A stretch of DNA of 64,000 bases. Origin: Geobacter sp. SVR (GTDB lineage: Bacteria > Desulfobacterota > Desulfuromonadia > Geobacterales > Pseudopelobacteraceae). Made by a program: the position numbers and the translations under genes. The stretch is from assembly GCF_016865365.1 (NCBI RefSeq), contig NZ_AP024469.1, positions 797,001-861,000 of the forward strand. The letters are read 5' to 3'. The notes under the pieces were generated by a model. That model saw only the letters and a list, made by a program, of their open reading frames with translations, searched no databases and was not told the DNA's origin. Below, in pieces: positions 10,510 through 26,938 of this stretch (position 1 is the stretch's first letter; every line of letters begins with the position of its first letter).

Positions 10510-13500
10510 TGTCGAACGATCGCATCAGGGACGAACATAGCCCGGAAGCCAGGGAATGGGAGCAGTTTTACCGGAACCGCTGGCAGTACGACAAGGTGGT
10601 GCGCAGCACCCACGGCGTCAACTGTACCGGCGGCTGCAGTTGGATGGTGCACGTCAAGGACGGCGTGGTGGGCTGGGAGCTGCAGGCCAACGATTATCCG
10701 CAGTTCAACGCTGATATTCCCAACCACGAACCGCGCGGCTGTCCTCGCGGGATCAGCTTTTCGTGGTACCTCTACAGTCCGCTGCGGGTGAAATACCCCT
10801 ACCTGCGCGGCGTGCTGCTGGATCTCTGGAAAGAGGCCCGGGCGCGGCACGACGACCCGGTGGAGGCCTGGGCCAGCATCGTTGAGAACGAGGAGACCCG
10901 CAAGGCCTACACCAGCAAGCGCGGCATGGGCGGTTTCCGGCGCGGTACCTGGGAAGAGGTGCTGGAGATCATCGCCGCCTCCACCATCTACACCGCCAAG
11001 AAGGACGGACCGGACCGGATCATCGGCTTCAGCCCGATTCCGGCCATGTCCATGATCAGCTATGCGGCCGGCACACGCTTCCTGCAGCTCCTGGGGGGGG
11101 TGGCCATGAGCTTTTACGACTGGTACTGCGACCTGCCTCCAGCCTCGCCCCAAATCTGGGGCGAACAGACCGATGTGTGCGAGTCGGCCGACTGGTACAA
11201 CTGCAGCTATTTCGTGCTGTGCGGTTCCAACGTCCCCATGACCCGCACCCCGGACGCCCACTTCCTGAGCGAGGCACGCTATCGCGGGGCCAAGGTGGTG
11301 GTCATGTCTCCCGACTACAACATGGCCACCAAGTTCGCCGACAGCTGGCTGCCGGTGGAGCAGGGGCATGACGGCGCCTTCTGGATGGCGGTCAACCACA
11401 TCCTGATGAAGGAGTTCTATCTCGATCGTCAGACCCCCTACTTTCAGGAGTATGTCTCCAAATATACCGACATGCCCTTCCTGGTGAAGCTGAAACGAGA
11501 GGGAGCGAGCTGGTGGCTGCCGGGGGATTTCCTGCGGGCCGGCGAGATCGGGCGCGGACAAGCGGTGGACCTGCCGGAATGGACCCTGTGCGTACTGGAC
11601 CAGGCGGGCCAGGTGCGCATCCCCAAGGGGAGCATGGGCAGCCGCTGGGGCAAGACCGAGGGGCACTGGAACCTGGATATGGTCGACTTGGTGGACGGTG
11701 AGCCGATCGACAGCCGCCTGACCCAGATCGGCGGCAAGAGCTGCATGGTCCGTTTCACCTTCGAAGGCTGTGGCAATGTGCTGCGCGAGGTGCCGGTTTC
11801 GCGCGTGGTGACCGCCTCTGGCGAAGAGGAACTGGTGGTGACGGTCTTCGACCTGCTGGCAGCGCAGCTAGGGGTATCGCGCGGCCTGGGAGGGGACTAT
11901 CCGCAGGATTACAAGGACGACAAACCCTTTACTCCGGCCTGGCAGGAGAAATATACCGGTATCAGCCCTGAAACTGTGCTGCAGATCGCCCGCGAATGGG
12001 GCGAAAACGGCGAGAAGACCCAAGGGCGCAACATGATCATCGTCGGCGCCGGCATCAATCACTGGTACCACAACGACCTGATCTACCGCGCCGCCATTAC
12101 CGCCCTGATCCTGACCGGCAGCGTCGGTAAGCAGGGGGGCGGGCTAGGGCATTACGTCGGCCAGGAAAAGGTCGTGCCCCTGGCCCCTTGGACCTCCGTT
12201 GCCATGGCCCAGGACTGGATCAAGCCGTCGCGCCTGCAGAACACCCCCAGCTTCTGGTACATGCACTCGGACCAGTGGCGTTACGACCGCAGCTTCGTGG
12301 ATTACTTCAAGCCCGAGACCGGCGAGCCGATGCCGCTGCATGCCGCCGATTTCAACGCCAAGGCGGTGCGGCTCGGCTGGCTCCCCTTTGCCCCGCATTT
12401 CAACGACAGCCCGGTGCGGATCGTCGCGGAGGCGGCCAAGGCAGGGGCTCAGAACGACGACGAGGTGAGAAAGAATATTGTCGAGCGCCTGAAGAGCGGC
12501 TCGCTGCGCTTTGCCATCGAGGACATCGATGCCAAAGAGAATTCTCCCAAGGTCTGGTTTATCTGGCGCGGCAATGCCATCTCCTCCAGCGCCAAGGGGC
12601 ACGAATATTTCCTCAAGCACGTGGTGGGGGCCCCCAACAGCGCCGTAACGGCCAAGGAATGCGCCAAGGGGCAGGTCAAGGATATCGTCTGGCATGACAA
12701 GGCGCCGGAAGGGAAGGTGGACCTGATCGTGGACCTGAACTTCCGCATGGACACCTCCACCCTCTACTCCGACATCGTCCTGCCGGCCGCCACCTGGTAC
12801 GAGAAGCAGGATATGAACACCACCGACATGCACTCCTTCATCAACTGCATGGATGCGGCCGTGCCGCCGGCCTGGGAATCAAAGTCGGATTGGGAGACCT
12901 TTGCTGCTATCGCCAAGAAGGTCAGTGAACTGGCCCCTAAGCACTTCCCGACCCCGTTCAAGGAGGTCGTGGCCGCGCCGCTCCTGCACGACACCCCCGG
13001 CGAGATCGCCCAGCGCAGCGTCAAGGACTGGAAACTGGGCGAATGCGAAGCGATCCCCGGCAAGACCATGCCCAACCTGGCCATTGTGGAACGGGACTAC
13101 GTCAACCTCTATAACCGCTTCATGTCCCTGGGGCCGGCCATCGGGCACCTGGGCGCCCACGGCGTGAATTGGGAGGCGGACGACGTTCATGAGAAGCTGC
13201 TCCGGGAGATGCCGACCCGTCAGTGGGGGGGCAAGCGTTTCATTGACCTGGAGAACGCGCAGAACGTGGCTGATGTGCTTCTGGCCCTGGCCCCTGAATC
13301 CAACGGCGAACTGGCCTATCGCGGCTATCAGAACCTGGAAAAGCGGGTCGGCAAGCCGCTGACTGCGCTGGCGGAAGGGAACCGCGGCTTCCGGCTCGAC
13401 TACGACGCCCTCAAGGGACAGCCTCGCCGCTACATCAACTCCCCCATCTGGAGCGGCATCGTCAGCGACGAGCGCCCCTATGCGGCCTACACGCTCAACG

Positions 13501-14090
13501 TGGAGTACGGCGTGCCCTGGCGCACCCTCTCGGGCCGGCAGTCGCTCTACCTGGATCATCCCTACTACCGCGCCTTCAGCGAGGGGCTGCCGACCTTCAA
13601 AGGCAGGATCAATCCCGCCTGCCTGGACGACATGGACCAGCCCGACGGGCTGGTGCTGAACTTCATGACCCCCCACGGCAAGTGGAGCATCCATTCCACC
13701 TACAGCGACAACCTGCGCATGCTGACCCTCTCCCGGGGCGGCCAGGCGGTCTGGATCAACGACAAGGACGCCGAGGAGGCCGGGATCGCGGACAACGAGT
13801 GGGTGGAACTCTACAACAACAACGGCGTGGTGGTCTGCCGCACCATTGTCAGCTCCCGCATTCCCCAAGGAGCCGCGATCATGTACCACGCCCCGGAGCG
13901 GACCCTGGCGATTCCCAAGTCCCGCAAGAGCGGCAAGCGGGGCGGGGTCCACAACAGCCTCTCCCGCGTGCGGCTGAAGCCGACCCTGATGCTGGGGGGC
14001 TACGCCCAGTTCAGCTATTACTTCAATTACTGGGGGCCGACCGGCGTAAACCGCGACTGCTACATCATCGTCAGAAAGTTGAGGGGGTGA
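10509..14090 (+). CDS. narG: respiratory nitrate reductase alpha subunit
   Basis: This 1193-residue Mo-bisMGD subunit reduces nitrate to nitrite. The 4Fe-4S ligands H35, C39, C43 and C78 keep the NarG spacing, and the Mo ligand Asp is D208 in YCDLPPASP, aligned with D222 of E. coli NarG. The DMSO-reductase-family core and the C-terminal nucleotide-binding domain are complete. No twin-arginine signal is present, so the active site should face the cytoplasm. The start at 10509 overlaps the cytochrome stop by one base; an in-frame upstream ATG lies inside that gene. narH follows after 3 bp. Confidence 0.97.
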   Translation: MSNDRIRDEHSPEAREWEQFYRNRWQYDKVVRSTHGVNCTGGCSWMVHVKDGVVGWELQANDYPQFNADIPNHEPRGCPRGISFSWYLYSPLRVKYPYLRGVLLDLWKEARARHDDPVEAWASIVENEETRKAYTSKRGMGGFRRGTWEEVLEIIAASTIYTAKKDGPDRIIGFSPIPAMSMISYAAGTRFLQLLGGVAMSFYDWYCDLPPASPQIWGEQTDVCESADWYNCSYFVLCGSNVPMTRTPDAHFLSEARYRGAKVVVMSPDYNMATKFADSWLPVEQGHDGAFWMAVNHILMKEFYLDRQTPYFQEYVSKYTDMPFLVKLKREGASWWLPGDFLRAGEIGRGQAVDLPEWTLCVLDQAGQVRIPKGSMGSRWGKTEGHWNLDMVDLVDGEPIDSRLTQIGGKSCMVRFTFEGCGNVLREVPVSRVVTASGEEELVVTVFDLLAAQLGVSRGLGGDYPQDYKDDKPFTPAWQEKYTGISPETVLQIAREWGENGEKTQGRNMIIVGAGINHWYHNDLIYRAAITALILTGSVGKQGGGLGHYVGQEKVVPLAPWTSVAMAQDWIKPSRLQNTPSFWYMHSDQWRYDRSFVDYFKPETGEPMPLHAADFNAKAVRLGWLPFAPHFNDSPVRIVAEAAKAGAQNDDEVRKNIVERLKSGSLRFAIEDIDAKENSPKVWFIWRGNAISSSAKGHEYFLKHVVGAPNSAVTAKECAKGQVKDIVWHDKAPEGKVDLIVDLNFRMDTSTLYSDIVLPAATWYEKQDMNTTDMHSFINCMDAAVPPAWESKSDWETFAAIAKKVSELAPKHFPTPFKEVVAAPLLHDTPGEIAQRSVKDWKLGECEAIPGKTMPNLAIVERDYVNLYNRFMSLGPAIGHLGAHGVNWEADDVHEKLLREMPTRQWGGKRFIDLENAQNVADVLLALAPESNGELAYRGYQNLEKRVGKPLTALAEGNRGFRLDYDALKGQPRRYINSPIWSGIVSDERPYAAYTLNVEYGVPWRTLSGRQSLYLDHPYYRAFSEGLPTFKGRINPACLDDMDQPDGLVLNFMTPHGKWSIHSTYSDNLRMLTLSRGGQAVWINDKDAEEAGIADNEWVELYNNNGVVVCRTIVSSRIPQGAAIMYHAPERTLAIPKSRKSGKRGGVHNSLSRVRLKPTLMLGGYAQFSYYFNYWGPTGVNRDCYIIVRKLRG

Positions 14091-14093: not shown

Positions 14094-15545
14094 ATGGACG
14101 TCAGAGCACAACTGGTAATGGTTCTCAATCTGGACAAGTGCATCGGCTGCCACACCTGCAGTCTTTCCTGCAAGAACATCTGGACCGACCGGCAGGGTGC
14201 CGAATACATGTGGTGGAACAACCTGGAGACCAAACCGGGGGCCGGCTATCCGAAACAGTGGGAGGACCAGGGTAAATTCAAGGGGGGCTGGGTCAGGGAA
14301 AACGGTACGCTCAAACTGCGGGCGCTGGGCAAGCTGCCGACCCTGCTGAACATCTTCTTTCAGCCCAACATGCCCCGGCTGGATGATTACTACGAGCCCT
14401 TCACCCATGACTACGCCAATCTTTACAGGGCGGCCGAAGACAATGACCAGCCGGTGGCTGACACCATCTCCCTGGTGACCGGCAAAAAGATCGACACCAT
14501 CAAGGGGGGACCCAACTGGGACGACGATCTTTCCGGCTCCTCCCTCTATGCCGCCAAGGATGTGAACCTGGAGGACCGGAAGATCCTGGAGGAGTACGAC
14601 CGGCTGTTCATGTTCTACATTCCCCGGCTCTGCAACCACTGCCTCAATCCGGCCTGCGTGGCGGCCTGTCCCTCGCGGGCCATCTACAAACGGGGCGAGG
14701 ACGGCGTGGTACTGGTGGACCAGGAGGTCTGCAAGGGATGGCGCTTCTGCACCAGCGCCTGCCCCTACAAGAAGGTCTACTACAACTGGACCAGCGGCAA
14801 GGCTGAGAAGTGCATCTTCTGCTATCCCCGCACCGAAACCGGCCAATGCAATGCCTGCGCCCACAGCTGCACCGGCAGGATCCGCTATCTGGGGGTGATC
14901 CTTTACGACGCCGAGCAGGTGGAAGCCGGGCTGAACGTGGAGGACCGTGACCTGATCGCGGCCCATCGCAGCCTGATTCTCGATCCGCTTGATCCGCGGG
15001 TGCTGACCAGTGCCCGAGCCAACGGTATTCCCGAGGCATGGCTGACAGCGGCCGCCAAATCGCCAGCCTATACCCTGATCAAGGAGACCGGTATGGCCCT
15101 GCCGCTCCACCCCGAGTTCCGCACCATGCCGATGGCCTACTACATCCCGCCGCTCTCGCCGGTGCTTTCCTCCAAGACCGTTTCTCACGAGCTGATGGCC
15201 TATGAGGGCATCCCGAGCTTGGAGACCCTGCGGGCGCCGATCGGGTATCTGGCCAACCTCTTTTCCGGTGGCAACCAGGAAGTGGTGGCCGAGGTGATCA
15301 GCAAGCTGATCGTGCTACGCAAGGAGATGCGCCGCCGCACTCTGGGCGGGGAACCGGACGAGTCGGTACTGGGGGGGGTAGGGCTGGAACCCGCCCTGGT
15401 GGAGCGCCTCTGCCGGCTTTTCACCAATGCCAGGTACAACGAACGCAACGTCATTCCTCCCCAGCAGCGAGAAGCGCTGGAGCCGGAACGGCGCAAAGGG
15501 GGCAGGGGCTTTGGCCTTGCCCATACTGCGCGAGGTGGTCTATGA
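14094..15545 (+). CDS. narH: respiratory nitrate reductase beta subunit
   Basis: The 483-residue electron-transfer subunit has four cysteine clusters. The first is at C16, C19, C22 and C26 (CIGCHTCSLSC). CNHCLNPACVAACP and CKGWRFCTSACP follow, where Trp replaces a Cys to make the 3Fe-4S centre as in E. coli NarH. The last is KCIFCYPR...CNACAHSC. It passes electrons from the NarI hemes to NarG on the cytoplasmic face. It starts 3 bp after narG and overlaps narJ by 4 bp. Confidence 0.97.
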   Translation: MDVRAQLVMVLNLDKCIGCHTCSLSCKNIWTDRQGAEYMWWNNLETKPGAGYPKQWEDQGKFKGGWVRENGTLKLRALGKLPTLLNIFFQPNMPRLDDYYEPFTHDYANLYRAAEDNDQPVADTISLVTGKKIDTIKGGPNWDDDLSGSSLYAAKDVNLEDRKILEEYDRLFMFYIPRLCNHCLNPACVAACPSRAIYKRGEDGVVLVDQEVCKGWRFCTSACPYKKVYYNWTSGKAEKCIFCYPRTETGQCNACAHSCTGRIRYLGVILYDAEQVEAGLNVEDRDLIAAHRSLILDPLDPRVLTSARANGIPEAWLTAAAKSPAYTLIKETGMALPLHPEFRTMPMAYYIPPLSPVLSSKTVSHELMAYEGIPSLETLRAPIGYLANLFSGGNQEVVAEVISKLIVLRKEMRRRTLGGEPDESVLGGVGLEPALVERLCRLFTNARYNERNVIPPQQREALEPERRKGGRGFGLAHTARGGL

Positions 15546-16087
15546 AGCCAGGAGAATCGTATCGTCATCTGACCATCCTGTTCGACTATCCGCAGGACAA
15601 AGTCGGCCTCCTGGCTTCGGCCGAAGCACTGGCCGGCTGCCTGGCGGCCAATCATCCGCAGGCGGACATTGCTCCCTTTGTGGAGTACCTGCGGGCCAGC
15701 GAGCTGGGGGAGCTGCAGGAGGAATACGTCCGCACCTTTGACTTCAACCCGCTCTGCGCCCCGTATCTGAGCCATCACCTCTACGGCGACAACAACAAGA
15801 AGGGGGCTTTCATGATCCGGCTCAAGGAGTTGTATCGGCAGCACGCCTTTACCCCCCGCACCTGCGAACTGCCCGATCATGTGGCGATCCTGTTCGACTG
15901 CGCCGCCCATCTGGTTGCCAAGGGGGAGATCGACATGTGCCGGGACCTGGTCAAAACCTTCGTGTCCGAGGGGCTCGGCACAATGCACACCGCCGCAGCC
16001 GATAAGGATGATCTGCACTGGAGATATCCGATTGCCGCCGCCGTGATCCTGAGCGAGGCCGAGTGCCGGGAGGTTCATCATGCTTGA
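15542..16087 (+). CDS. narJ: nitrate reductase maturation chaperone
   Basis: The 181-residue protein is a TorD/NarJ-family chaperone that assists Mo-cofactor insertion and membrane attachment of NarGH. It is all-helical with the family hallmark LGELQEEYVRTFDF and a following LSHHLYGDN. It overlaps narH by 4 bp (ATGA) and narI by 8 bp, so the three are translationally coupled. Confidence 0.93.
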   Translation: MKPGESYRHLTILFDYPQDKVGLLASAEALAGCLAANHPQADIAPFVEYLRASELGELQEEYVRTFDFNPLCAPYLSHHLYGDNNKKGAFMIRLKELYRQHAFTPRTCELPDHVAILFDCAAHLVAKGEIDMCRDLVKTFVSEGLGTMHTAAADKDDLHWRYPIAAAVILSEAECREVHHA

Positions 16088-16763
16088 TACGTTTATCTTC
16101 GTATTTCTGCCGTACACCGCCCTGGCCCTGCTGATCGGGGTCACTCCCTACCGCTACCTGACCAACCGCCTGACCTGGACCACCTATTCCACCCAGTTCC
16201 TGGAGCGGGACACGCTCTACTGGGGGATCACCTCCTGGCATCACGGCATCATCCTGATCCTGCTGGCCCATCTGGCCGGCATTGTCTGGCCGCAGGGCAT
16301 GCAGCGGCTGTTAGGCAATCAGCAGACCCTGGTCGTGCTGGAGAGCATCGGCCTGGGACTGGGGCTGCTGGCGCTGTTCGGCTGCCTGGTGCTGCTGCTG
16401 CGCCGGGTCAACAGCGGCATGCTCGGGCGCGTCACCTTTGCCGCCGATTGGGTTTTGCTCTACCTGTTGATCTTCCAGGCCGCTTCCGGGATCTATGTAG
16501 CCATCTTTATGCGCTGGGGCTCGGTCTGGTACCTGCACACCGCGGTGCCGTATCTCCATTCGCTGTTGCTGTTCAGGCCGCAGATCGAGTATGTGGCCGA
16601 CTTCCCGCTGGTCTTCAAGCTGCATGCGGCCCTGGCCTTCCTGATCGTGGCCCTGCTGCCCTTTACCAAGCTGGTGCACCTGCTGTTCCTGCCGTGCCGT
16701 TTCCTGGCCGACCCGCCGATCCTGTACCGCTGGCTCGGCAAGGGAGGTGTGGGCCGGGATTGA
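16080..16763 (+). CDS. narI: respiratory nitrate reductase gamma subunit (cytochrome b)
   Basis: The 227-residue membrane protein has five predicted helices and holds two b hemes that oxidise quinol at the periplasmic side. Histidines suitable as heme ligands appear in TSWHHGIILILLAHLAG and in the helix around YLHTAVPYLHSLLLF. Length matches E. coli NarI. It is the last gene of the narGHJI run, and a hairpin-rich repeat separates it from narK1. Confidence 0.95.
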   Translation: MLDTFIFVFLPYTALALLIGVTPYRYLTNRLTWTTYSTQFLERDTLYWGITSWHHGIILILLAHLAGIVWPQGMQRLLGNQQTLVVLESIGLGLGLLALFGCLVLLLRRVNSGMLGRVTFAADWVLLYLLIFQAASGIYVAIFMRWGSVWYLHTAVPYLHSLLLFRPQIEYVADFPLVFKLHAALAFLIVALLPFTKLVHLLFLPCRFLADPPILYRWLGKGGVGRD

Positions 16764-16937: not shown

Positions 16938-16996
16938 CTTTGCTCCCTGTGGCAAACGCCGTGCGGTTTCATGATTTCTTCTGGGAGGATCTGACG

Positions 16997-18517
16997 ATGC
17001 TGGAAGTCGCCACATGGAAATCGCATAAGAACCTCTTCCTCAACACCCTGGCCTTTACGGTCTGCTTTGCGGCCTGGATGTTCAACGGCGTGCTGGTGAC
17101 CTATCTGGTTGACAACCAGGTTTTCACCTGGGGGCCGGTCCAGATCGGCTGGCTGTTCGGGATTCCGGTCCTGACCGGCTCGATTTTCCGTTTGCCGGCC
17201 GGCATGCTGACCGACAGGTTCGGCGGCAAGCCGGTGTACGGAACGCTTCTCATCCTCTGCGCCATTCCGATGTATCTGCTCTCCAAGGCCGACAGCTTTA
17301 CCTCATTTGCCCTGTGCAGCTTCGGTTTCGGCATGGCCGGGGTAAGCTTTTCGATCGGTATTGCCTTCACCTCGGTCTGGTATCCGCGCGAGCGGCAGGG
17401 CACGGCGCTGGGAATCTTCGGTGCCGGGAACGCCGGGGCGGCCCTGACCACGCTGCTGGCCCCGACCATGCTCAACCGGCTGACCGACAATGGCGCCAAC
17501 CTGGAAGGCTGGCGCGCGCTGCCGGTCTATTACGCCCTGATCCTGGCGGTCATGGGGGTAATTTTCTTCGTCTTCAGTGACAACAGAAAACCGGCCGGGT
17601 CCGGCAAGCCCTTCTTCGCCATGCTGACACCGCTCAAACATGTCCGGGTCTGGCGTTTCGGTCTGTACTACTTTCTGGTGTTCGGCTGTTTCGTGGCCTT
17701 TTCCCAATGGCTGGTGCCCTACTTCGTGAATGTCTATTACCTGCCGCTGGTGACCGCCGGCCTGTTCGCCTCGATGTTCAGCCTCCCATCGGGGGTGATC
17801 CGCGCCCTGGGGGGCTGGATGTCCGACAGGTTCGGCGGCCGCCGGATCATGTACTGGGTGCTGGGCGCCTCCACGGTCATCAGCCTGATGGTGACGATAC
17901 CGAGGATGGAGATCCAGTCCCCCGGACGAGGGGTGATGGCCAAGCGGGCCGGCACGGTCCAGGCGGTGACCGGCGAATCCATCGTAGTAAGGGAACTGAA
18001 AAGCAGCTTGGCCGTGCTGGGGGACCAATCCTACGCGTTGAAGGCCAAGCCGGTGGTACTGCAGGGTTTCGACGACCGGATGCTGATACTGCCTGGGAAG
18101 CAGACCTGGCAGGAGCCGGTGGTCACGGTCGGGCAGACGGTCAAGAAAAAGGAGCTGCTTGCCAAAGGGGTGACGCGGATATTCTTTCAGGCCAATGTCT
18201 GGATCTTTGCCGTGCTGGTGCTGGCACTCGGTGCGATCTGGGGCATCGGCAAGGCGGCGGTCTACAAGCTGATCCCGGATTACTTTCCGGACGAGGTCGG
18301 CGTGGTGGGGGGGATGGTGGGAGTGCTCGGCGGCCTGGGCGGTTTCGTCTGCCCGATCGTGTTCGGGTATCTGCTGGAATGGACCGGGCTGTGGACCAGT
18401 TGCTGGATGTTCATGTTGGCCCTGTCGGTGGTCTGCCTGGTTTCACTGCACCATGTCGCCCAGAAGATGATGAAGCAGAAGCATCCTGACGATATGCGTA
18501 CGTTCGAGCAGCATTAA
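16997..18517 (+). CDS. narK: NarK-type nitrate/nitrite transporter with inserted soluble domain
   Basis: The 506-residue major facilitator protein belongs to the nitrate/nitrite porter family. It shows the NNP signature (AGVSFSIGIAFTSVWYP...GIFGAGNAGAA) and two MFS loop motifs (GMLTDRFGGK, GWMSDRFGGRR). An extra segment of about 90 residues (roughly 302-395) interrupts the second six-helix half. It is polar, rich in beta-type sequence and contains GTVQAV and VVTVGQTVKKKELLAKG, reminiscent of a barrel-sandwich (lipoyl/RNAP-hybrid-like) fold. By sequence it looks like a NarK1-type H+/nitrate symporter, an inference. The start at 16997 follows a GGGAGG site; the longer upstream reading lacks one. 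It lies between narI and the second narK. Confidence 0.9.
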   Translation: MLEVATWKSHKNLFLNTLAFTVCFAAWMFNGVLVTYLVDNQVFTWGPVQIGWLFGIPVLTGSIFRLPAGMLTDRFGGKPVYGTLLILCAIPMYLLSKADSFTSFALCSFGFGMAGVSFSIGIAFTSVWYPRERQGTALGIFGAGNAGAALTTLLAPTMLNRLTDNGANLEGWRALPVYYALILAVMGVIFFVFSDNRKPAGSGKPFFAMLTPLKHVRVWRFGLYYFLVFGCFVAFSQWLVPYFVNVYYLPLVTAGLFASMFSLPSGVIRALGGWMSDRFGGRRIMYWVLGASTVISLMVTIPRMEIQSPGRGVMAKRAGTVQAVTGESIVVRELKSSLAVLGDQSYALKAKPVVLQGFDDRMLILPGKQTWQEPVVTVGQTVKKKELLAKGVTRIFFQANVWIFAVLVLALGAIWGIGKAAVYKLIPDYFPDEVGVVGGMVGVLGGLGGFVCPIVFGYLLEWTGLWTSCWMFMLALSVVCLVSLHHVAQKMMKQKHPDDMRTFEQH

Positions 18518-18519
18518 GT

Positions 18520-18639
18520 GGTTGTTGAAAAACGGGCATCTCGCCGCCGTCCTCGTCAGCCCTCTTGTGCGGCGTAGCGCTGCTACGCCTCCGCGGGGCT
18601 TCCTGCGGGTGCGACGATCTGCCCATTTTTGAACAACCT
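18520..18639. repeat. 120-bp dispersed hairpin element with 19-bp terminal inverted repeats
   Basis: The ends GGTTGTTGAAAAACGGGCA and its opposite arm match at 17 of 19 positions. The interior contains the perfect palindrome CGTAGC-GCT-GCTACG and the flanking GCGGGG run. Related, more decayed copies in the opposite orientation occur at 54934-55110 and 57072-57233. No coding capacity is seen. It resembles the MITE-like repeats common in Geobacter genomes and separates the two narK genes. Confidence 0.7.
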
Positions 18640-18700
18640 GAGAATTTCAACAGCCTGTTTTTTAAAACAGCACGGCAAACTACCGGGCAAGGAGAAGGCT

Positions 18701-20086
18701 ATGTCATCACGTGTGTTAACCGAATGGAATCCTGAAAACGGACAGTTCTGGGAAAACAGGGGCAAGGCGGTCGCCAGCCGCAACCTGTGGATATCGATTC
18801 CGGCGCTGTTCCTGTCGTTTGCGGTCTGGATGGTCTGGAGCGTGGTGGTCGTCAACCTGCCCTCCATCGGATTTCCGTACGACCCGAACAAGCTCTTCTG
18901 GCTGGCGGCCCTGCCGGGACTCTCCGGCGCCACGCTGAGGATCTTCTACTCGTTTATGGTGCCGATCTTCGGCGGCCGTACCTGGACCACCATCAGCACC
19001 GCCTCGCTGCTCATCCCGGCCGTGGGGATCGGATTTGCCGTGCGCGATCCGCAGACCAGCTACAGCACCATGCTGATCCTGGCGCTCTTGTGCGGCTTCG
19101 GAGGGGGCAATTTCGCCTCCAGCATGGCCAACATCAGCTTCTTTTTCCCCAAAGCCCAGAAGGGTACCGCCCTGGGGCTGAATGCCGGACTCGGCAATCT
19201 GGGGGTAAGCGCCATGCAGTTCATCGTGCCGCTGATTATCACCACCGGGGTGTTCGGCGCCCTGTGCGGAGATCCCCAGATGTGCATCATCAAGGGGGTG
19301 AGCAGGCCCATGTGGCTGCAGAATGCCGGCTTCGTGTGGGTGCCCTTCATTCTCGTTTCGGCCATTGCCGCCTGGTTCGGGATGAACGCCATTGCCAGCG
19401 CCAAGGCCTCCTTCAGCGAGCAGGCCGTCATCTTCCGCCGCAAGCACAACTGGCTGATGTGCTGGCTGTACCTCGGCACCTTCGGCTCCTTCATCGGCTA
19501 CTCGGCCGGGCTGCCGCTGTTGACCAAGTCCCAGTTCCCCGGCATCAATCCGACCCAGTACGCCTTCCTCGGTCCGCTGGTTGGGGCTCTGCTCCGTCCG
19601 GTGGGGGGCTGGTTGGCAGACAAGCTCGGCGGCGCCCGGGTCACCTTCTGGAATTTCATCGTCATGGCGGCGGCCGCGTGCGGGGTGATCTTCTTCCTCC
19701 CCAGCCATGGCAGCGGCGGCAATTTCTGGGGCTTTCTGGCCATGTTCATGCTGCTGTTCGCCACCACCGGCATCGGTAACGGCTCCACCTTCCGCATGAT
19801 CCCGGTCATCTTCCTCACCGAACGGCAGCGGGAAGCGGCCGGCAAGGGGCAGGCAGCCCAGGAGCAGGCCGTCAGAGACGCCAACAAGGAGGCAGCGGCA
19901 GTGCTCGGTTTCACTTCGGCCTTTGCCGCCTACGGCGCCTTCTTCATCCCCAAGAGCTTCGGCACGTCGATCACATTGACCGGTGGACCGGAAGGAGCAC
20001 TTTACGGTTTCATCGCCTTCTACGCCACCTGCATCGTCATGACCTGGTGGTTTTATTCGCGTAAAAACGCCGCCATGCCCTGTTGA
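18701..20086 (+). CDS. narK: second NarK-type nitrate/nitrite transporter
   Basis: The 461-residue MFS protein has about 12 helices. It has NNP-family motifs in GFGGGNFASSMANISFFFP and LNAGLGNLGVSAMQF and the MFS loop motif GWLADKLGGAR. It lacks the soluble insertion of its neighbour. Its sequence type is closer to NarK2 nitrate/nitrite antiporters, so the pair may provide nitrate uptake and nitrite export; this assignment is inference. The start at 18701 follows AAGGAG; an in-frame ATG 72 bases upstream lies at the edge of the repeat and has no such site. Confidence 0.9.
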   Translation: MSSRVLTEWNPENGQFWENRGKAVASRNLWISIPALFLSFAVWMVWSVVVVNLPSIGFPYDPNKLFWLAALPGLSGATLRIFYSFMVPIFGGRTWTTISTASLLIPAVGIGFAVRDPQTSYSTMLILALLCGFGGGNFASSMANISFFFPKAQKGTALGLNAGLGNLGVSAMQFIVPLIITTGVFGALCGDPQMCIIKGVSRPMWLQNAGFVWVPFILVSAIAAWFGMNAIASAKASFSEQAVIFRRKHNWLMCWLYLGTFGSFIGYSAGLPLLTKSQFPGINPTQYAFLGPLVGALLRPVGGWLADKLGGARVTFWNFIVMAAAACGVIFFLPSHGSGGNFWGFLAMFMLLFATTGIGNGSTFRMIPVIFLTERQREAAGKGQAAQEQAVRDANKEAAAVLGFTSAFAAYGAFFIPKSFGTSITLTGGPEGALYGFIAFYATCIVMTWWFYSRKNAAMPC

Positions 20087-20233
20087 CCGTAATGGGCACG
20101 AACCAGTCCACGGGTAACACGTCAGAGGAGGATTCATACCATTTTCAGGCAATTCCCGGTTCGGGCGTGAATGTGTCCCGGAGGTTGCCGGCGTGCAAGG
20201 ATACGTTTTTGCGTGCAGATGCAGGAACGTTGT

Positions 20234-20249
20234 GTTACCGTTTGGTAAC
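20234..20249. promoter_or_regulatory. palindrome GTTACC-N4-GGTAAC upstream of the sigma-54 activator gene
   Basis: A 6-bp perfect inverted repeat with a 4-base spacer ends 19 bases before the activator start. The same arms and spacing recur at 21675-21690 before the nap promoter. It is a likely autoregulatory site of the adjacent Fis-type DNA-binding protein. Confidence 0.65.
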
Positions 20250-20268
20250 CTTTGCGGGTCCGGGGAGA

Positions 20269-21657
20269 ATGGTGAGTAACTGTATCGATATACCGAACAT
20301 TTATCAGGCAATCCTGGAAAGCATGGGGGAAGGGATCATCGTTGCCGATGCCGAGGGCACGCTGATTTTCATCAATCGCACCGCTGAACGTCTCCGAGGT
20401 ATCAAGGCCGCCAACTTCATCGGTCGCAGCATCCTGTCCATCCATTCACCCCATTCGGCGGAACGCATCGCAAAACTCCTGGAGGCCCTTAAAGACGGCT
20501 CCATCAACACATCGCGGCGGGTGATCGATGTCAGGGGCAGATACTTCGAGAACAGCTACTATCCCATCCGGCATCCGGACGGCGGCCTCTATCGGGGAAC
20601 CCTCATGATAAGCAGGGACATCACCGAAAAGCGGCGCCTCAAGGAAGAGAACCTGCTGCTGAGGGAGAAAATGTCCCTGGGCAGTGCCTTCGAAGGCTTC
20701 GTGGGGACCAGCCAGGCCATTCTGCAGGTATTCCGGACCATCTCAACCATCGCCTCCCTCGATTCCACCATCCTGATCACCGGTGAAAGCGGCACCGGCA
20801 AGGAGTTGGTGGCCACAGCCATCCAGCAGCACAGCAAGCGCCGCCATAAACCGATGATCACGGTGAACTGCGCCGCCCTGCCGGAACACCTAGTGGAGTC
20901 GGAGCTGTTCGGCCACGAGCGGGGAGCCTTCACCGGGGCCGTTTCCAACCGCCGCGGCAAGTTCGAGCAGGCCAACGGCGGTACCATCCTGCTGGACGAG
21001 ATCGGCGATCTTCCGGCCAGTGCCCAGGCCAAGCTGTTGCGCGTCATCCAGGAGAAGACCGTGGCCCGCCTGGGGGGGGAGCGCGACATCCGGGTGGACG
21101 TGCGCATCATTGCCGCCACGAACCGGGATCTGCAGACGCTGGTGGAGTTGGACCTATTTCGCCAGGATCTCTACTACCGCCTCAATGTGATCACCATCCA
21201 CGCCCCCCCCCTGCGTGAGCGGCGCGAGGATATCGTCCCGCTGGCCGAGCATTTCGTCCGCCTGTTTGCCGAAAAGATGGAACGTCCGGTCAAAGGGCTC
21301 AGTGAACCTGCCGTCCGAATTCTGGCCGCCTATGATTACCCCGGCAATGTCCGCGAACTTGAACACGCCATGGAGCGCGGCGTGGCGCTGTGCTGCGGCG
21401 ACTTGCTGGAGCCGCAGGACCTGCCGCCCCATTTTCTGGCGGCCCGCAGCGCGAACAGCTCCGCCATCGGACAGGAGGATGAACAGAATGCGTTACGCCC
21501 CCTGTCGCATTCCGTCGGCGATTTCGAGCGGCAACTGGTTCTGGATGCCCTGCTCAAAGCCGGCGGCCGCAAGGCCGATGCGGCCCGGTTGCTCAACATC
21601 TCCCGCAAGACCCTCTGGAAGAAACTGAAGCAGATCGAAGCAGTGGAAACCAGGTAA
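20269..21657 (+). CDS. PAS-domain sigma-54-dependent transcriptional activator
   Basis: The 462-residue enhancer-binding protein has an N-terminal PAS domain (about 8-115), a central AAA+ domain and a C-terminal Fis helix-turn-helix. The AAA+ domain shows Walker A GESGTGKE, the sigma-54 contact loop GAFTGA, and Walker B ILLDEIGDL. The helix-turn-helix reads RKADAARLLNISRKTLWKKL. There is no receiver domain, so it should sense a signal directly through PAS rather than by phosphorylation. The start at 20269 was chosen because GGGGAG precedes it and the PAS begins there; the longer reading from 20083 would put the upstream palindrome inside the coding region. It lies between narK and napD and probably controls the nap promoter. 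Confidence 0.9.
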   Translation: MVSNCIDIPNIYQAILESMGEGIIVADAEGTLIFINRTAERLRGIKAANFIGRSILSIHSPHSAERIAKLLEALKDGSINTSRRVIDVRGRYFENSYYPIRHPDGGLYRGTLMISRDITEKRRLKEENLLLREKMSLGSAFEGFVGTSQAILQVFRTISTIASLDSTILITGESGTGKELVATAIQQHSKRRHKPMITVNCAALPEHLVESELFGHERGAFTGAVSNRRGKFEQANGGTILLDEIGDLPASAQAKLLRVIQEKTVARLGGERDIRVDVRIIAATNRDLQTLVELDLFRQDLYYRLNVITIHAPPLRERREDIVPLAEHFVRLFAEKMERPVKGLSEPAVRILAAYDYPGNVRELEHAMERGVALCCGDLLEPQDLPPHFLAARSANSSAIGQEDEQNALRPLSHSVGDFERQLVLDALLKAGGRKADAARLLNISRKTLWKKLKQIEAVETR

Positions 21658-21778: not shown

Positions 21779-21794
21779 TGGCACGTTCCCTGCT
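21779..21794 (+). promoter_or_regulatory. sigma-54 (-24/-12) promoter of the nap operon
   Basis: TGGCACGTTCCCTGCT matches the consensus TGGCACG-N4-TTGCW with one mismatch. The invariant GG and GC are separated by exactly 10 bases. It lies 40 bases upstream of napD, downstream of the paired palindrome and directly after the sigma-54 activator gene. Confidence 0.85.
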
Positions 21795-21833: not shown

Positions 21834-22082
21834 ATGCCCGTTTCGGGAATTGTGATTATCTGCAGGGACGGTCGCGCCGATACCGTTGCGGCGCAGCTTA
21901 CGGCGCTCGAGGGGGTCGAGGTACACGGGGTATTGCCCGGCAACCGGGTGGTAGCGGTGGTGGAGGCTGATACCGTTGACAGAGAGGTTTCCCTGGTCTC
22001 TGGCCTCCATGAATGTGACGGGGTGGTCTCGGTCCAGGTTGCCTATCATAACTTCGAGGACATTCAGTGGCGTGCAGTGTGA
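21834..22082 (+). CDS. napD: NapD-like chaperone for NapA
   Basis: The 82-residue protein has the ferredoxin-like fold pattern of NapD: an N-terminal VSGIVIICRDG strand, LEGVEVHGVLPGNRVVAVVE and a C-terminal DGVVSVQVAYHNFE. NapD binds the twin-arginine signal of NapA and holds back export until cofactor insertion is complete. The gene starts 40 bases after the sigma-54 promoter and 30 bp before napA, which fits. Confidence 0.88.
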   Translation: MPVSGIVIICRDGRADTVAAQLTALEGVEVHGVLPGNRVVAVVEADTVDREVSLVSGLHECDGVVSVQVAYHNFEDIQWRAV

Positions 22083-22112: not shown

Positions 22113-24443
22113 ATGGGACTGAGCAGACGTGATTTTTTGAAGACCAGCGCCGCAGCCGCCGCATTGGCGGCAGCCGGAGCATCGATGAGGAATCCGCTGG
22201 GGGTGCAGGAAGCTGAAGCCGCCGACAGCTCCGGCATTACGTGGGGCAAGGCCCCCTGCCGTTACTGCGGTGTCGGCTGCGGCGTGCTGGTGGGGGTCAA
22301 GGGGGGCAGGATCGTGGCCACCAAGGGTGACCCGCAGGCACCAGTCAACAAGGGTCTCAACTGCATCAAGGGCTACCTCCTCTCCAAGGCGCTGTACGGC
22401 AGGGACCGCCTCACCACGCCGCTGATCCGCAAAGGCGACAGGATGGTCGAGGCCTCCTGGGACGAAGCCCTGGACCTGATCGCCTCCAAATTCAGGGAGT
22501 CGATTGCCAAAAACGGGCCGGACTCGGTGGCCATGTTCGGTTCAGGACAGTGGACTGTGTTCGAGGGCTATACCGCTTCCAAACTCTTCAAGGGGGGCAT
22601 CGGCACCAACAACCTGGAACCCAATGCGCGCTTCTGCATGGCCTCTGCGGTCGTGGCCTTCATGAATACCTTCGGATCCGACGAGCCGATGGGCTGCTAC
22701 GATGACCTGGACTTGGGAGACACCTATATCTTGTGGGGCGCCAACATGGCCGAGGCGCATCCGGTGCTGTTCTCCCGCCTGATCGACAACAAGCTCAAAA
22801 ATCCCAAGGTCAAAATCATCGACCTGGGTACCCGTCGTACCCGCACCACCCAGATGGCGGACCAGTACATCCCTTTCAAGCCGCAGGGCGATCTGGCGCT
22901 GGCCAATGCCCTGGCCCATGTGATCGTCCGCGACGGCCTCTATGACGAGGCCTTCATCAAGAAACACTGCGTCTTCAAGCGGGGCAAGGAAAATGCTCCC
23001 TACGGCCTGACTGACAAGGAAAACTTCAACGAGGGACCCAATGACGTCAAGGTCCTGACCTTCGAGGAATACCGGGAGTACCTCAAACCCTTCACCCCGG
23101 AGTGGGGCGAGAAACTTTCGGGGGTCCCCGCCAAGACGATAGTCGAACTGGCCCACCTCTACGGCGACAAATCCCGTAAGGTCAACTCGCTCTGGACCAT
23201 GGGGGTCAACCAGCATGTGCGCGGCACCTGGGTCAACAACCTGATTTACAGCCTGCACCTGCTGACCGGCAAGATCTGCCGTCCCGGGGAGAACCCGCTC
23301 TCCCTGACCGGTCAACCCTCTGCCTGCGGCACGGCCCGCGAGGTGGGCACCTTTTCCCATCGCCTGCCGGCCGACATGGTGGTCATGAACGAGGATCACC
23401 GCAAAAAGGCCGCCAAAATATGGGGCATCGATCCGGCCAGGATTCCGGCCAAGCCGGGGCCGCATGCCATCGAAATGTTCCGTGCCGTTGACCGGGGGGA
23501 GATCAAATGCATGTGGGTGCAGTGCACCAACCCCTTCCAGTCGACCCCCAATCTGGCCCGTTACCGCAAGGGAGCCCGCAAGGATGGCCGCTTCATTGTG
23601 GTTTCCGACATCTACCCAACCCGCTCGACAGAGCTGGCTGACGTGGTGCTCCCCTCCGCCTCCTGGGTGGAAAAGGAGGGGGTCTTCGGCAACACCGAAC
23701 GCCGGACTCAGCAATGGTTCAAGATGATCGATCCCCCCGGCCAGGCCAAACCGGATGCCTGGCAGATGATCGAGGTTGCCAAACGCCTTGGTCTTGGCCA
23801 CCTGTTTCCCTACAGCGAGCAGAACTTCCATAAGGAAATGTGGGAGGAATATCGCCAGTTCACCATCGGTACCGGCAAGGACCTGGCCCCCTATGAAACC
23901 TATTTTACGGTGCGCGGCCTGCGCTGGCCGATAAAAGCGGATGGCAAGGAGACCAGGTACCGGTATGTGGAAGGGGATGATCCCAAGGTTGGAATGGGCG
24001 AGGGGATCAAGTTCCATAAAGCCCCCAACTACAAGGCCACCATCTGGGCCCGCCCCTACGAGCCGGCTGCGGAGGTGCCGGACGGGCAGTACCCGTTCTG
24101 GCTCAGCACCGGCCGTTTGCTGGAGCATTGGCACACCGCCACCATGACCGGGCGCATACCGGAATTGAAACGCGCCATGCCCGGCGCCACCCTTGAGATG
24201 CATCCCGAGGACGCCGGCCGCCTCGGCATCAGGAATCGCCAGAAGGTAAAGATCAGCTCCCGACGCGGATCGATTGTCCTGCCGGTGGAACTGAACGGTC
24301 GGGGCAAGCCCGAGAAGGGCAATGTCTTCACCACATTCTTCGACGAAGCCAAGCTGATCAACGACCTGTGCATCGACGCCTTTGATCCGCTTTCCAAGGA
24401 ACCGGATTTCAAGAAATGTGCGGTAAAGATCGAGAAGGCGTAG
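22113..24443 (+). CDS. napA: periplasmic nitrate reductase catalytic subunit
   Basis: The 776-residue Mo-bisMGD enzyme begins with a twin-arginine signal (SRRDFLK, then an Ala-rich core ending near AEA). The 4Fe-4S cluster ligands are C49, C52, C56 and C84. The Mo ligand is C175 in NARFCMASAV, the NapA/formate dehydrogenase-type Cys rather than the NarG Asp. Length is close to monomeric Desulfovibrio NapA and shorter than E. coli NapA. The nap context (napD before, a NapB-like cytochrome after) supports nitrate reductase over assimilatory NasA or formate dehydrogenase. A GGGAGG site precedes the ATG. Confidence 0.93.
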   Translation: MGLSRRDFLKTSAAAAALAAAGASMRNPLGVQEAEAADSSGITWGKAPCRYCGVGCGVLVGVKGGRIVATKGDPQAPVNKGLNCIKGYLLSKALYGRDRLTTPLIRKGDRMVEASWDEALDLIASKFRESIAKNGPDSVAMFGSGQWTVFEGYTASKLFKGGIGTNNLEPNARFCMASAVVAFMNTFGSDEPMGCYDDLDLGDTYILWGANMAEAHPVLFSRLIDNKLKNPKVKIIDLGTRRTRTTQMADQYIPFKPQGDLALANALAHVIVRDGLYDEAFIKKHCVFKRGKENAPYGLTDKENFNEGPNDVKVLTFEEYREYLKPFTPEWGEKLSGVPAKTIVELAHLYGDKSRKVNSLWTMGVNQHVRGTWVNNLIYSLHLLTGKICRPGENPLSLTGQPSACGTAREVGTFSHRLPADMVVMNEDHRKKAAKIWGIDPARIPAKPGPHAIEMFRAVDRGEIKCMWVQCTNPFQSTPNLARYRKGARKDGRFIVVSDIYPTRSTELADVVLPSASWVEKEGVFGNTERRTQQWFKMIDPPGQAKPDAWQMIEVAKRLGLGHLFPYSEQNFHKEMWEEYRQFTIGTGKDLAPYETYFTVRGLRWPIKADGKETRYRYVEGDDPKVGMGEGIKFHKAPNYKATIWARPYEPAAEVPDGQYPFWLSTGRLLEHWHTATMTGRIPELKRAMPGATLEMHPEDAGRLGIRNRQKVKISSRRGSIVLPVELNGRGKPEKGNVFTTFFDEAKLINDLCIDAFDPLSKEPDFKKCAVKIEKA

Positions 24444-24544
24444 CGATGTCAAAGCCGAAAGAGCGACCGGATATCGGCAGCACACTGCCTCCGGTTCTCG
24501 CGATTATATCTTCATATGAAGCAGTCCCCAGGAGGTCGGTTGCC

Positions 24545-24850
24545 ATGAAGACTCTGTCCCGCTGTCTTATCCCGCTTGCTTGCCTGTGTGCGCTGGCTCT
24601 TCCCGCAGGAGCCGCAGAAAAGGGGGGCGATTATGCCAAGGATGCCGCGTCTGCCGAAGGGACACCAGCCACGGTCCCGCATCGCATGGATGACAAGGCC
24701 CACGCGGATTGTCTGGCCTGCCATCTCACGGGGGTGCGCGGTGCCCCGGTAACACCGCATCCTGAACGCCGCGACTGTGCCCAGTGTCACGTGCAGGGTG
24801 AGATAAAGCGAAATACGCCGGAAAAGAAAAAAGACGGAAAGAAACGTTAG
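24545..24850 (+). CDS. napB: short NapB-like diheme cytochrome c
   Basis: The 101-residue protein has a signal peptide (to about AGAA, residue 24). Its central part reads VPHRMDDKAHADCLACH and APVTPHPERRDCAQCHV, with hemes at 56-60 and 78-82. The spacing of the paired histidines, both CxxCH motifs and the CHV ending match the NapB family. Full NapB proteins are about 150 residues, so this is a stripped-down form. A Lys-rich tail follows the last heme. The start at 24545 has AGGAGG nine bases upstream; longer in-frame starts overlap the end of napA. It should pass electrons to NapA in the periplasm. Confidence 0.8.
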   Translation: MKTLSRCLIPLACLCALALPAGAAEKGGDYAKDAASAEGTPATVPHRMDDKAHADCLACHLTGVRGAPVTPHPERRDCAQCHVQGEIKRNTPEKKKDGKKR

Positions 24851-24861: not shown

Positions 24862-25218
24862 ATGGGCATCTCCCGCAAGGATTTTTTTCGCCAGAGTCTG
24901 CTGTCCCTGGGGCAAACCGCCCTGGATCTGGCCGGCGCGCTCAAGGCCCCGGCCGATGCATCGGCTCCCGTGCCGGAAGTGCCGTATCCGCCGCAGCCGC
25001 GTGAGGACATGATGGCGACCTCGTTCAACGAGCGCTGTCTGGCGCGGGAATGCGGCTGCTTCATCTGTTCCGAGCGTTGCGAATCCGGGGCCCTCATGGT
25101 GGTGCCGGGGCAGGGGGTGCGGATCGATGGGGCGCGCTGCATCGGATGCGGCACCTGTGAGTACATCTGTCCGGTTACCCCCAAGGCGGTGGCCCTGGTA
25201 CCGCGGGAAGGAACATAG
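24862..25218 (+). CDS. napF: NapF-like ferredoxin protein
   Basis: The 118-residue protein starts with SRKDFFRQSLLSLG, which resembles a weak twin-arginine motif with Lys in the second place and is followed by only a mild hydrophobic stretch. Two Fe-S regions follow. The C-terminal one is canonical (C93, C96, C99, C103; CIGCGTCEYICP). The first has an irregular order C59-x4-C64-x-C66-x2-C69-x3-C73. It is half the size of E. coli NapF and may correspond to a fragment of NapF/NapG. Whether it is exported is unclear. It lies 11 bp after the napB-like gene. Confidence 0.7.
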   Translation: MGISRKDFFRQSLLSLGQTALDLAGALKAPADASAPVPEVPYPPQPREDMMATSFNERCLARECGCFICSERCESGALMVVPGQGVRIDGARCIGCGTCEYICPVTPKAVALVPREGT

Positions 25219-25224: not shown

Positions 25225-25238
25225 TTGACTCACATCAA
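25225..25238 (+). promoter_or_regulatory. FNR-type operator before the octaheme nitrite reductase gene
   Basis: TTGAC-TCAC-ATCAA fits the FNR/DNR consensus TTGAY-N4-RTCAA and resembles the site before the nar operon. It lies 87 bases upstream of the reductase start, right after the NapF-like gene. The reductase could thus have its own anaerobic promoter in addition to read-through from nap. Confidence 0.6.
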
Positions 25239-25324: not shown

Positions 25325-26938
25325 ATGCAGAAAAAGAAACTGGCCCTGTCTGCAGCAGTAGCCGGTGCGATCGCCATGCTGGCGCTGCCCGCGCTGACTG
25401 TCGCAGTCAACAAGCCGGCCACCAAGGTGGCCAACGACGGCCGTGCCACGTGCTACGAGTGCCATGATGAGGTCAAGGTCATGAAAGAGGGCTCCAAGCA
25501 TGCCAAACTGGCCTGTACCGTTTGCCACGACAAACTGGATGCCCACGCCAAGGACCCGGAAAAGAACAAGCCCGGCACGGTCATCGACCAGGCTCTGTGC
25601 GGCAAGTGTCACAAGAACCAGATGGAGAGCTTCTACACCCTGAACCGCGATGGCGGTGCACGCAAGGAAAAGGGGGTGCCGACCGGTCGTTCACCCATGC
25701 AGGACAAGCTCCTGGCAGGTCACGGTTTCACCTTTGAGCACGACGAACCGCGCGCCCATGCCTTCATGGTAATCGATCAGTTTGCGGTGGACCGCTTCCA
25801 GGGGGGGCGCTACCAGTTCAAAGGGGGCTGGAAGAACATCGACAAGATGGGCAAGACCTGGGATGTGCTGGAGGACAAGGGTAAAGGGACCAAGCTGACC
25901 GAAACTGCCATGGCCGGCAATCCGACCTGCATCCAGTGCAAGACCTCCGACCATATACTCACCTGGAAGTTCATGGGTGACAAGGGGGGCAAATTCGACC
26001 GCACCTCCGATGTCAACGACGTGGCCAAGGCGACCAACAATCCGCTGGGCTGCATTCACTGCCACGATCCCCACGGCACGCAGCCCCGCGTGGTGAGGGA
26101 CGCACTGATCCAGGCCATCCAGAAGGATCCCAAGGGCAATATCTTCTCCAAGAACGGCGCCACTGACCTGAAGGTGGTCGATTTCCGCGGTTTCCGCAAG
26201 ATCGGTGTGATGAGCAAGACCGATTCGCGCATGATGTGCGCCCAGTGCCATGTGGAGTACAACTGCAATGCCGGCAGCCAGTGGAGCGACGGCAAGCCGG
26301 TCAAGTACGACGACCAGCGCACCAATCACTTCCCGCTCAAGAACTCTCTGCAACTGCTCAAGCACTACAAGGAGCTGGACTTCTTCGATTTCAAGCATGC
26401 AGTCACCGGTGCCCGCCTGATCAAATTTCAGCACCCCGAGGCCGAGACCTATGCCGGCAGTGTGCACGACAAGGCCGGCGTGCAGTGCCACCAGTGCCAC
26501 ATGCCCAAGATGAAGGGCAAGGATGGCAAGAGGTTCTCGACCCACGGCGTGGTCAAGCCCAAGCTGGCGGTCAAGGCCTCCTGCCTGGGGTGCCATACCG
26601 ACAGCACGGTCGAGAAAAAACTGTATGAAATCGAAACGATCGTCAACTATACCAAAGGTAAGATGCGCAAGGCGGAATACTGGCTGGGCCAGTTGATCGA
26701 CACCTATGCCGCGGCACAGCGTCTGGGCGTGGCTGAAAGCGTCCTGGCCCAGGCCCGCGAGAAGCATGAAGAGGCCCATGCCCTGTGGGAATACTGGACC
26801 GCCGAGAATTCCGACGGGTTCCACAACCCCTCGCTGGCCCGCGAGAGCCTGACCGGCTCCATTGCCGCCTCCAAGGCAGGCGTGAAGATCCTCAACGACG
26901 CCATGGCCGTGGCCAAGAAGGATGAGCCGAAGAAGTAG
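25325..26938 (+). CDS. octaheme ammonia-forming cytochrome c nitrite reductase (ONR)
   Basis: The 537-residue protein has a signal peptide and eight heme sites: CxxCH at 43, 64, 92, 243, 305, 388 and 420, and a catalytic CIQCK at 202-206. A lysine-ligated fourth heme after three N-terminal hemes is the pattern of Thioalkalivibrio octaheme nitrite reductase, not pentaheme NrfA. Downstream of heme 6, EYNC (Y312, C314) matches the Tyr-x-Cys pair that is cross-linked in that enzyme; NrfA has Tyr without the Cys. R143 (EPRAHA) and H370 (FQHPEAE) correspond to the other active-site residues. It should reduce nitrite to ammonium in the periplasm. No nrfH follows; a terminator does. Confidence 0.93.
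   Translation: MQKKKLALSAAVAGAIAMLALPALTVAVNKPATKVANDGRATCYECHDEVKVMKEGSKHAKLACTVCHDKLDAHAKDPEKNKPGTVIDQALCGKCHKNQMESFYTLNRDGGARKEKGVPTGRSPMQDKLLAGHGFTFEHDEPRAHAFMVIDQFAVDRFQGGRYQFKGGWKNIDKMGKTWDVLEDKGKGTKLTETAMAGNPTCIQCKTSDHILTWKFMGDKGGKFDRTSDVNDVAKATNNPLGCIHCHDPHGTQPRVVRDALIQAIQKDPKGNIFSKNGATDLKVVDFRGFRKIGVMSKTDSRMMCAQCHVEYNCNAGSQWSDGKPVKYDDQRTNHFPLKNSLQLLKHYKELDFFDFKHAVTGARLIKFQHPEAETYAGSVHDKAGVQCHQCHMPKMKGKDGKRFSTHGVVKPKLAVKASCLGCHTDSTVEKKLYEIETIVNYTKGKMRKAEYWLGQLIDTYAAAQRLGVAESVLAQAREKHEEAHALWEYWTAENSDGFHNPSLARESLTGSIAASKAGVKILNDAMAVAKKDEPKK

Follow-up and report, generated by a model that had tools for sequence, protein, structure and literature searches.

An octaheme nitrite reductase gene very likely closes a nar-narK-nap island in Geobacter sp. 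SVR

The octaheme nitrite reductase TaNiR and the Nap-TaNiR module of Trichlorobacter ammonificans are reportedly those described by Sorokin et al. (2023, ISME J). An enzyme of T. ammonificans homologous to the one studied below is reported to work with Nap (PMC11972089, PMC13390470), and the in vivo nitrite-reductase function of this octaheme nitrite reductase (ONR) is called proven in a source that also gives NapAGHD for D. alkaliphilus (PMC12142623). In T. lovleyi, whose genome has Nar and a total of two NrfA and one ONR, the nap genes are directly followed by the ONR, named 'NrfA-3' (PMC11972089). Octaheme enzymes are described as having the heme order three CXXCH, one CXXCK and four CXXCH, a His between sites 6 and 7 and a dependence on calcium (PMC10716430), together with a Tyr-Cys link (PMC12285233).

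The window, the whole 64-kb stretch of DNA analysed here, covers C1:797001-861000 of a 4.72-Mb single-contig genome. Its ONR gene lies directly downstream of nap genes, 885 nt after napA, at the end of an island with the following features:

9617..9630, no strand assigned: Crp/FNR-family box TTGACTTGGGTCAA, exact HcpR-type TTGAC-N4-GTCAA, before the nar operon (pattern scan)
9709..10509, + strand: c-type cytochrome with two CXXCH by eye, first of the nar group (ORF; PF00034)
10464..14090, + strand: NarG-like molybdopterin catalytic subunit, which we take to be narG from size and sequence (ORF; PF00384 match at genome 807785-809920); the listed GTG start overlaps the preceding gene and the true start may be downstream
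14094..15545, + strand: NarH-like 4Fe-4S subunit (ORF; named by position and Cys pattern)
15542..16087, + strand: NarJ-like chaperone (ORF; named by position only)
16080..16763, + strand: NarI, nitrate reductase gamma subunit (PF02665, 204.6 bits)
16940..18517, + strand: NarK-type nitrate/nitrite transporter 1 (PF07690; TIGR00886 186.9 bits, under cut-off); the true start may be downstream of 16940
18629..20086, + strand: NarK-type nitrate/nitrite transporter 2 (TIGR00886 342.2 bits, over cut-off)
20083..21657, + strand: sigma-54-dependent activator with PAS, AAA and Fis HTH domains (PF00158, PF08448, PF02954)
21779..21794, + strand: sigma-54-type -24/-12 sequence TGGCACGTTCCCTGCT, 39 nt before napD (pattern scan)
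21834..22082, + strand: napD, NapA chaperone (PF03927)
22113..24443, + strand: napA, periplasmic nitrate reductase with Tat signal (TIGR01706 1009 bits, over cut-off; PF10518)
24545..24850, + strand: short diheme NapB-like cytochrome, 101 aa, with two CXXCH and no Pfam or NCBIfam family at E 0.001; a similar protein follows napA in relatives; we chose the start at 24545 inside the listed ORF 24416-24850
24862..25218, + strand: small NapF-like ferredoxin, 118 aa (Fer4; TIGR00402; alignment)
25225..25238, no strand assigned: Crp/FNR-family box TTGACTCACATCAA before ONR, one half-site HcpR-like and one FNR-like (pattern scan)
25325..26938, + strand: octaheme nitrite reductase, 537 aa, ATG start (ORF, Pfam, alignment, tree)

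The order napD (21834), napA (22113), NapB-like (24545), NapF-like (24862) and ONR (25325) is the one given by an earlier sequence-only reading of this DNA, which also stated correctly that the cluster has no nrfH; among the ORFs of the island we saw none for napG, napH, napC or nrfH. The nar genes with their leading c-type cytochrome, the two narK genes and the sigma-54 activator (9709-21657) directly precede nap. These, and the other nitrite reductases of the genome (NrfHA and a second ONR), were absent from that reading.

The ONR protein carries eight C-x2-C-[HK] heme motifs, at residues 43, 64, 92, 202, 243, 305, 388 and 420, in the order three CXXCH, CXXCK and four CXXCH; the fourth is CIQCK, and Y312 and C314 sit within CAQCHVEYNC. 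All these elements, first read from the letters, are present in the 537-aa ORF. Residues 180-528 matched Pfam Cytochrom_C552 at 201.7 bits (cut-off 24.1), and the N-terminus MQKKKLALSAAVAGAIAMLALPALTVA, inspected by eye, is hydrophobic and reads as a putative signal peptide. The top PDB chain was 8rv0, an octaheme cytochrome c nitrite reductase (E 4.7e-271), followed by chains of TvNiR from Thioalkalivibrio nitratireducens (PDB 2zo5 and others; about 1e-152 to 1e-142), whereas NrfA chains matched much more weakly (3e-32 or worse). The 8rv0 stretch was identical at 494 of 494 residues to the ONR of G059, a single-contig 3.06-Mb genome from the same family as the window's organism with the gene order napD-A-G-H-B-F, then ONR; we infer that this protein is TaNiR of T. 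ammonificans. The window ONR shared 74.0% identity with the G059 protein over 535 columns, 49.8% with TvNiR over 486 columns and 27.0% with the NrfA of its own genome, and a quick tree placed it within the ONR clade. An AlphaFold model of the protein was poor (mean pLDDT 50.3, pTM 0.45) and unusable as a structural check.

Alignment with TvNiR, whose active site comprises Tyr303, Cys305, Arg131, Lys188, Gln360 and His361, paired these residues with Y312, C314, R157, K206, Q369 and H370, respectively. Every one of the six TvNiR residues has its counterpart in the window protein, which also has the same heme order as TvNiR, and the alignment puts Y312 and C314 at the active site, as had been proposed. 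R157, K206, Y312, C314 and H370 were conserved in all 89 rows of an ONR alignment (85 distinct genes, four rows repeating a gene already included), and Q369 was kept in 88, the exception being L142. Eight heme motifs were found in 89 of 90 rows, TvNiR counted; the exception, L155, is a partial match and shows seven. Pentaheme NrfA resembles ONR in its Cytochrom_C552 match, its CXXCK active-site heme and the conserved Tyr and His, but it has five hemes rather than eight, and the genome's own NrfA lacks the Cys two residues after the Tyr, with Ile in the C314 column and Arg in the Q369 column; the absence of the Tyr-Cys pair from NrfA, claimed earlier, is borne out for this NrfA. On these residues the window ONR is very likely a nitrite-to-ammonium enzyme, in which the reaction would take place at the Lys-ligated heme 4 (K206), with R157, Y312 and H370 in the distal pocket. 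Y312 is probably thioether-linked to C314, and Q369 would lie at a calcium site. An ONR would also be expected to form hexamers and to reduce nitrite with six electrons.

Because the protein is 74% identical to the 8rv0 protein and keeps both the pocket residues and the CXXCK motif, we identify the gene as ONR. The NCBIfam NrfA models scored it far below their cut-offs (NF008339, 115.5 against 595; TIGR03152, 94.4 against 692.5); the genome's real NrfA (L005:6044-7600) also stays under both cut-offs, so it is the number of hemes that decides between ONR and NrfA. With eight hemes and 27% identity to the genome's own NrfA, an NrfA identity was rejected, and the description of a Thioalkalivibrio-type octaheme enzyme stands. 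We are highly confident that the window gene encodes a predicted exported ONR of the TvNiR/TaNiR family, which would convert nitrite to ammonium and end a nitrate-respiration island.

To place the locus in its family, we surveyed 76 genomes, calling NapA at E<=1e-150 (fragments could fall below this cut) and NapF-like proteins at E<=1e-8. An ONR-type match, fragments included, was found in 51 of the 76 genomes, NapA in 27, a NapF-like protein in 48 and an NrfA-type match, picked up weakly by the ONR query, in at least 27; ONR and an NrfA-type match occurred together in 14. In 18 of the 27 NapA-bearing genomes an ONR followed NapA on the same strand at a distance of no more than 4 kb, in five others an NrfA-type match lay within 4 kb after NapA, and neither was seen there in the remaining four. 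Given the 18 of 27 genomes and the published descriptions of T. lovleyi and T. ammonificans, the Nap-ONR arrangement is known and not rare in the family, and the earlier view of it as rare does not hold. A published screen of about 1 million assemblies reported 106 onr sequences, with 12 assemblies holding both genes and one holding more than one onr (PMC10716430). Among GTDB contigs, 155 stretches encode a relative; in the best 80 of these 155, NapA stood upstream in 15 (12 with NapG/H and 3 without) and downstream in 6, and NarK stood upstream in 6. NarK and NapA were together upstream in none of these best 80 loci, within flanks of at most 6 kb, several of them cut by contig ends. As side observations, among the five genomes with an NrfA-type gene after NapA in place of ONR, the four regions read (L068, L069, L070, L071) all hold NrfHA, which looks like a swap of one nitrite reductase for another, and contig C210 of G065 carries ONR residues 1-244 (1069-1812) and 241-537 (13955-14860) about 12 kb apart, which would fit either an insert within the gene or a misassembly.

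NapA and ONR are 699 nt apart in G058, 790 in G028, 885 in the window and 1115 in G054; the remaining 14 of the 18 genomes have spacings of 2168-2329 nt. Eight of these 14 loci were read (L059, L060, L064, L065, L066, L067, L077, L176), and NapG- and NapH-like ORFs occupied the gap in each; those of L059 pass the NCBIfam cut-offs. Its spacing thus places the window in a short form, shared by a minority, that has no visible quinol dehydrogenase. Compared with the TaNiR system, the window ONR has the same heme pattern and pocket residues, shares 74% identity if the 8rv0/G059 protein is TaNiR, and likewise follows napA, a NapB-like and a NapF-like gene. The G059 locus, however, has the napG and napH that mark the Nap-TaNiR module, and neither lies between napA and ONR in the window; the window, unlike the TaNiR system, also has nar and two narK genes upstream and NrfHA and a second ONR elsewhere in the genome. 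With no NapC, NapGH or NrfH among its genes, the island shows no quinol link to ONR, and this is possibly a new point.

The whole genome gave only two PF03264 NapC/NirT-family matches at E<=0.001: the NrfH and, at 4612 kb, a presumably ImcH-like protein with seven hemes. Outside the island, NapG-like sequence was matched once (E<=1e-5) and NapH-like sequence eight times (E<=0.001). One gene, a NapH-NapG-like polyferredoxin fusion (L088:6115-7695, at 3385-3387 kb), was considered as the missing quinol link and set aside: it adjoins a preceding DUF362 gene (L088:5066-7695 together) and not nap, and any link to Nap is putative. As for the source of nitrite, Nar would work on the cytoplasmic side, served by two NarK, and NapDAB on the periplasmic side, so that nitrite from either side of the membrane could reach ONR. 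Since nar and two narK genes precede nap, nitrate reduction at the locus need not be only periplasmic, and Nar may feed ONR too. Of the earlier proposal that a non-Nrf enzyme carries nitrate to ammonium in the periplasm, the non-Nrf part is upheld and the purely periplasmic part is weakened.

The box before ONR (25225-25238) ends 86 nt before the ATG and reads TTGAC-TCAC-ATCAA, a hybrid when set against the FNR pattern TTGAT-N4-ATCAA. The 64-kb window holds the pattern TTGAYNNNNRTCAA twice, where 0.21 occurrences would be expected (two of 100 shuffles reached two), and the whole genome holds it 20 times against 5 for a control pattern. Three of its sites precede nar (9617), ONR (25225) and the nrf-side activator (C1:2898918, L005:3919), respectively, and none was found in the region of the second ONR (L006). 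An exact box was present in the 250 nt upstream of 26 of 77 ONR loci (3 more loci were too short) compared to 25 of 3150 control windows, a contrast somewhat overstated, given the relatedness of the loci and the largely coding nature of the control windows. The 26 boxes comprised 15 of the HcpR type (TTGAC..GTCAA), 8 hybrids and 3 of the FNR type (TTGAT..ATCAA). The recognition helix of a Crp/FNR-family protein (C1:3663134, L185) contains TASETVSRTLRKL and, set against CRP, presumably has Ser at 180 and keeps Glu181. The HcpR motif of Geobacter and Desulfuromonas is given as wyTTGACnnnnGTCAArw, with a predicted regulon that includes nrfHA and nar, and regulator residues 180 and 181 are said there to correlate with site positions 3 and 6 (PMC1274295). 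Based on the box counts, the Geobacter motif and this helix, the boxes of the ONR family are probably better called HcpR-type than FNR-type, with the window copy a hybrid. The FNR-type site claimed for ONR thus exists as a box of its own, and its type needs this correction. ONR would be controlled through that box; nap would be read from the sigma-54-type sequence beside the PAS-domain activator. Two sigma-54-type matches were found in the window against 0.24 expected, the other at 8649-8664.

We also examined the NapF-like ferredoxin (24862-25218), which has two putative [4Fe-4S] motifs and an N-terminal SRKDFF and scored 23 bits against TIGR00402 napF, far under the cut-off of 102.2. In the 35 relatives' rows the N-terminus, wherever present, has SRK (TRK in L137) and not RR; the second piece of L115 has no N-terminus. 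In 39 family genomes a NapF-like protein is encoded on the same strand as ONR and 33-287 nt upstream of it. NapA was not detected at E<=1e-150 in 18 of these 39, and completeness reaches 90% or more in 15 of the 18; the 18 include G021, G047 and G025. A stop codon falls inside 5 of the 52 NapF-like matches (G036, G021, G047, G044 C44, G032 C241), and the G025 match covers residues 50-115 only. In 33 of the best 80 of 155 loci no other marker came between the ferredoxin and ONR; 15 of these 33 had at least 5 kb of upstream DNA and showed no NapA. No ferredoxin was seen upstream in the other 47 (7 of the 80 had less than 1 kb of upstream DNA), nor in the 6 of the best 80 with nap downstream of ONR. 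Thirteen of the 52 matches were not followed by ONR. NrfHA or NrfA was near in four of them (L068, L070 and L172 read; G052 by coordinates only), the ferredoxin coming after NrfA, not before, in L068 and G052, and the fetched stretch held no nitrite reductase in seven (L171, L173, L174, L175, L177, L178, L179; the contigs of L174 and L178 end just downstream). In G032, where no NapA was found, the ferredoxin stands before NrfHA. Because it precedes ONR in 39 genomes, 18 of them without detected NapA, and is near NrfHA in a few, gene neighbourhood suggests that the ferredoxin goes with nitrite reduction rather than with NapA, which is possibly new. The matches not followed by ONR, the interrupted or partial matches and the ONR loci without a ferredoxin give this reading no help. 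In a paper on octaheme nitrite reductase, napF appears in the reference list only, and the original description of TaNiR may discuss the gene.

Elsewhere in the genome, an NrfH (TIGR03153, 147.3 bits, over cut-off) and a pentaheme NrfA were found at C1:2900.3-2902.6 kb, and the idea of an organism without Nrf was rejected on that ground. The surrounding region (L005:3963-8797, C1:2899.0-2903.8 kb) has a paralogous PAS/sigma-54 activator upstream and a NapH-like gene downstream. The second ONR (C1:3999.4-4001.0 kb, L006:5361-6977) is 60.1% identical to the window ONR and has the same pocket residues; no nap or nar genes were seen in the fetched region around it (L006). T. lovleyi is like this genome in having an ONR after nap beside NrfA and Nar, and differs in that the genome here has one NrfA and two ONR. 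With two further reductases of the ammonium-forming type, the window ONR may not be the main one. In the quick tree, four ONR copies of uncultured Geobacteraceae formed a group with that of the window (SH-aLRT 96), separate from the P. chapellei L138 copy, and the second ONR clustered with the P. chapellei C15 copy (SH-aLRT 92). NapA at the cut-off and the NapF-like gene were not found in the two genus-mates; together with the tree grouping, this suggests that the genus-mates lost the island or that it was acquired from a relative. Outside the window, four Crp-type HTH matches with identical scores and a spacing of about 6.95 kb (C1:212918, 219864, 226810, 233758; L187-L190) suggest a long tandem repeat or amplified unit.

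Several other readings of the locus were weighed. Multiheme cytochromes are easily misnamed, and the scores far under the NrfA cut-offs would also suit a non-catalytic or different octaheme cytochrome, such as hydroxylamine oxidoreductase, octaheme tetrathionate reductase or an electron carrier; against 74% identity to the 8rv0 protein, six of six aligned pocket residues kept, the retained CXXCK and a Cytochrom_C552 score of 201.7 bits (cut-off 24.1), we rejected this as very improbable. A catalytic ONR could instead serve mainly to detoxify nitrite (and NO or hydroxylamine) arising from Nar and Nap rather than energy-yielding respiration. The Crp/FNR-family box before ONR, mostly HcpR-type in relatives, fits this, as do the NrfHA and second ONR of the genome, the island's want of a quinol dehydrogenase and the predicted control by HcpR of nitrogen-oxide genes, Geobacter nrfHA and nar included (PMC1274295). 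The homologous Nap-ONR module of T. ammonificans, however, is reported as its sole route of nitrate ammonification (PMC11972089), and we regard detoxification as the main role as unlikely.

The history of the island allows a further reading, in which ONR is the functional partner of Nar and NarK, and nap was inserted later between the second narK and the ferredoxin-ONR pair. Among the four nearest ONRs in the tree, two (L091, L157) belong to nar-narK-narK-(F)-ONR islands whose flanks lack nap, such islands recur in L094, L100, L160 and L148, the ferredoxin-ONR pair occurs in 18 genomes without detected NapA, and ONR has its own upstream box. L093, another of the four, lies in a nap-G-H-B-F-ONR cluster, so the ancestral order cannot be told, and we give later insertion of nap somewhat less than even chances. 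The same ferredoxin-ONR pairs could mean that the ferredoxin is a relic of lost nap clusters. Somewhat improbable in our judgement, and offered tentatively, is the proposal that it serves specifically as a partner to cytochrome c nitrite reductases of the ammonium-forming type, and not as a NapA factor; in islands like this one, without NapC, NapGH or NrfH, it would then be part of an alternative route of electron delivery or maturation for ONR.

The window ONR itself is ordinary in kind, and the island joins nar, nap and ONR. The association of the ferredoxin with ONR, and sometimes with NrfHA, also where NapA was not detected, the box shared by nar, ONR and nrf, and the Nap-ONR pairing with no visible quinol link are leads that can be reused elsewhere. 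With this locus the ONR route of nitrate ammonification, by which soils and sediments retain nitrogen, gains another member; in this family the route is common, not rare.
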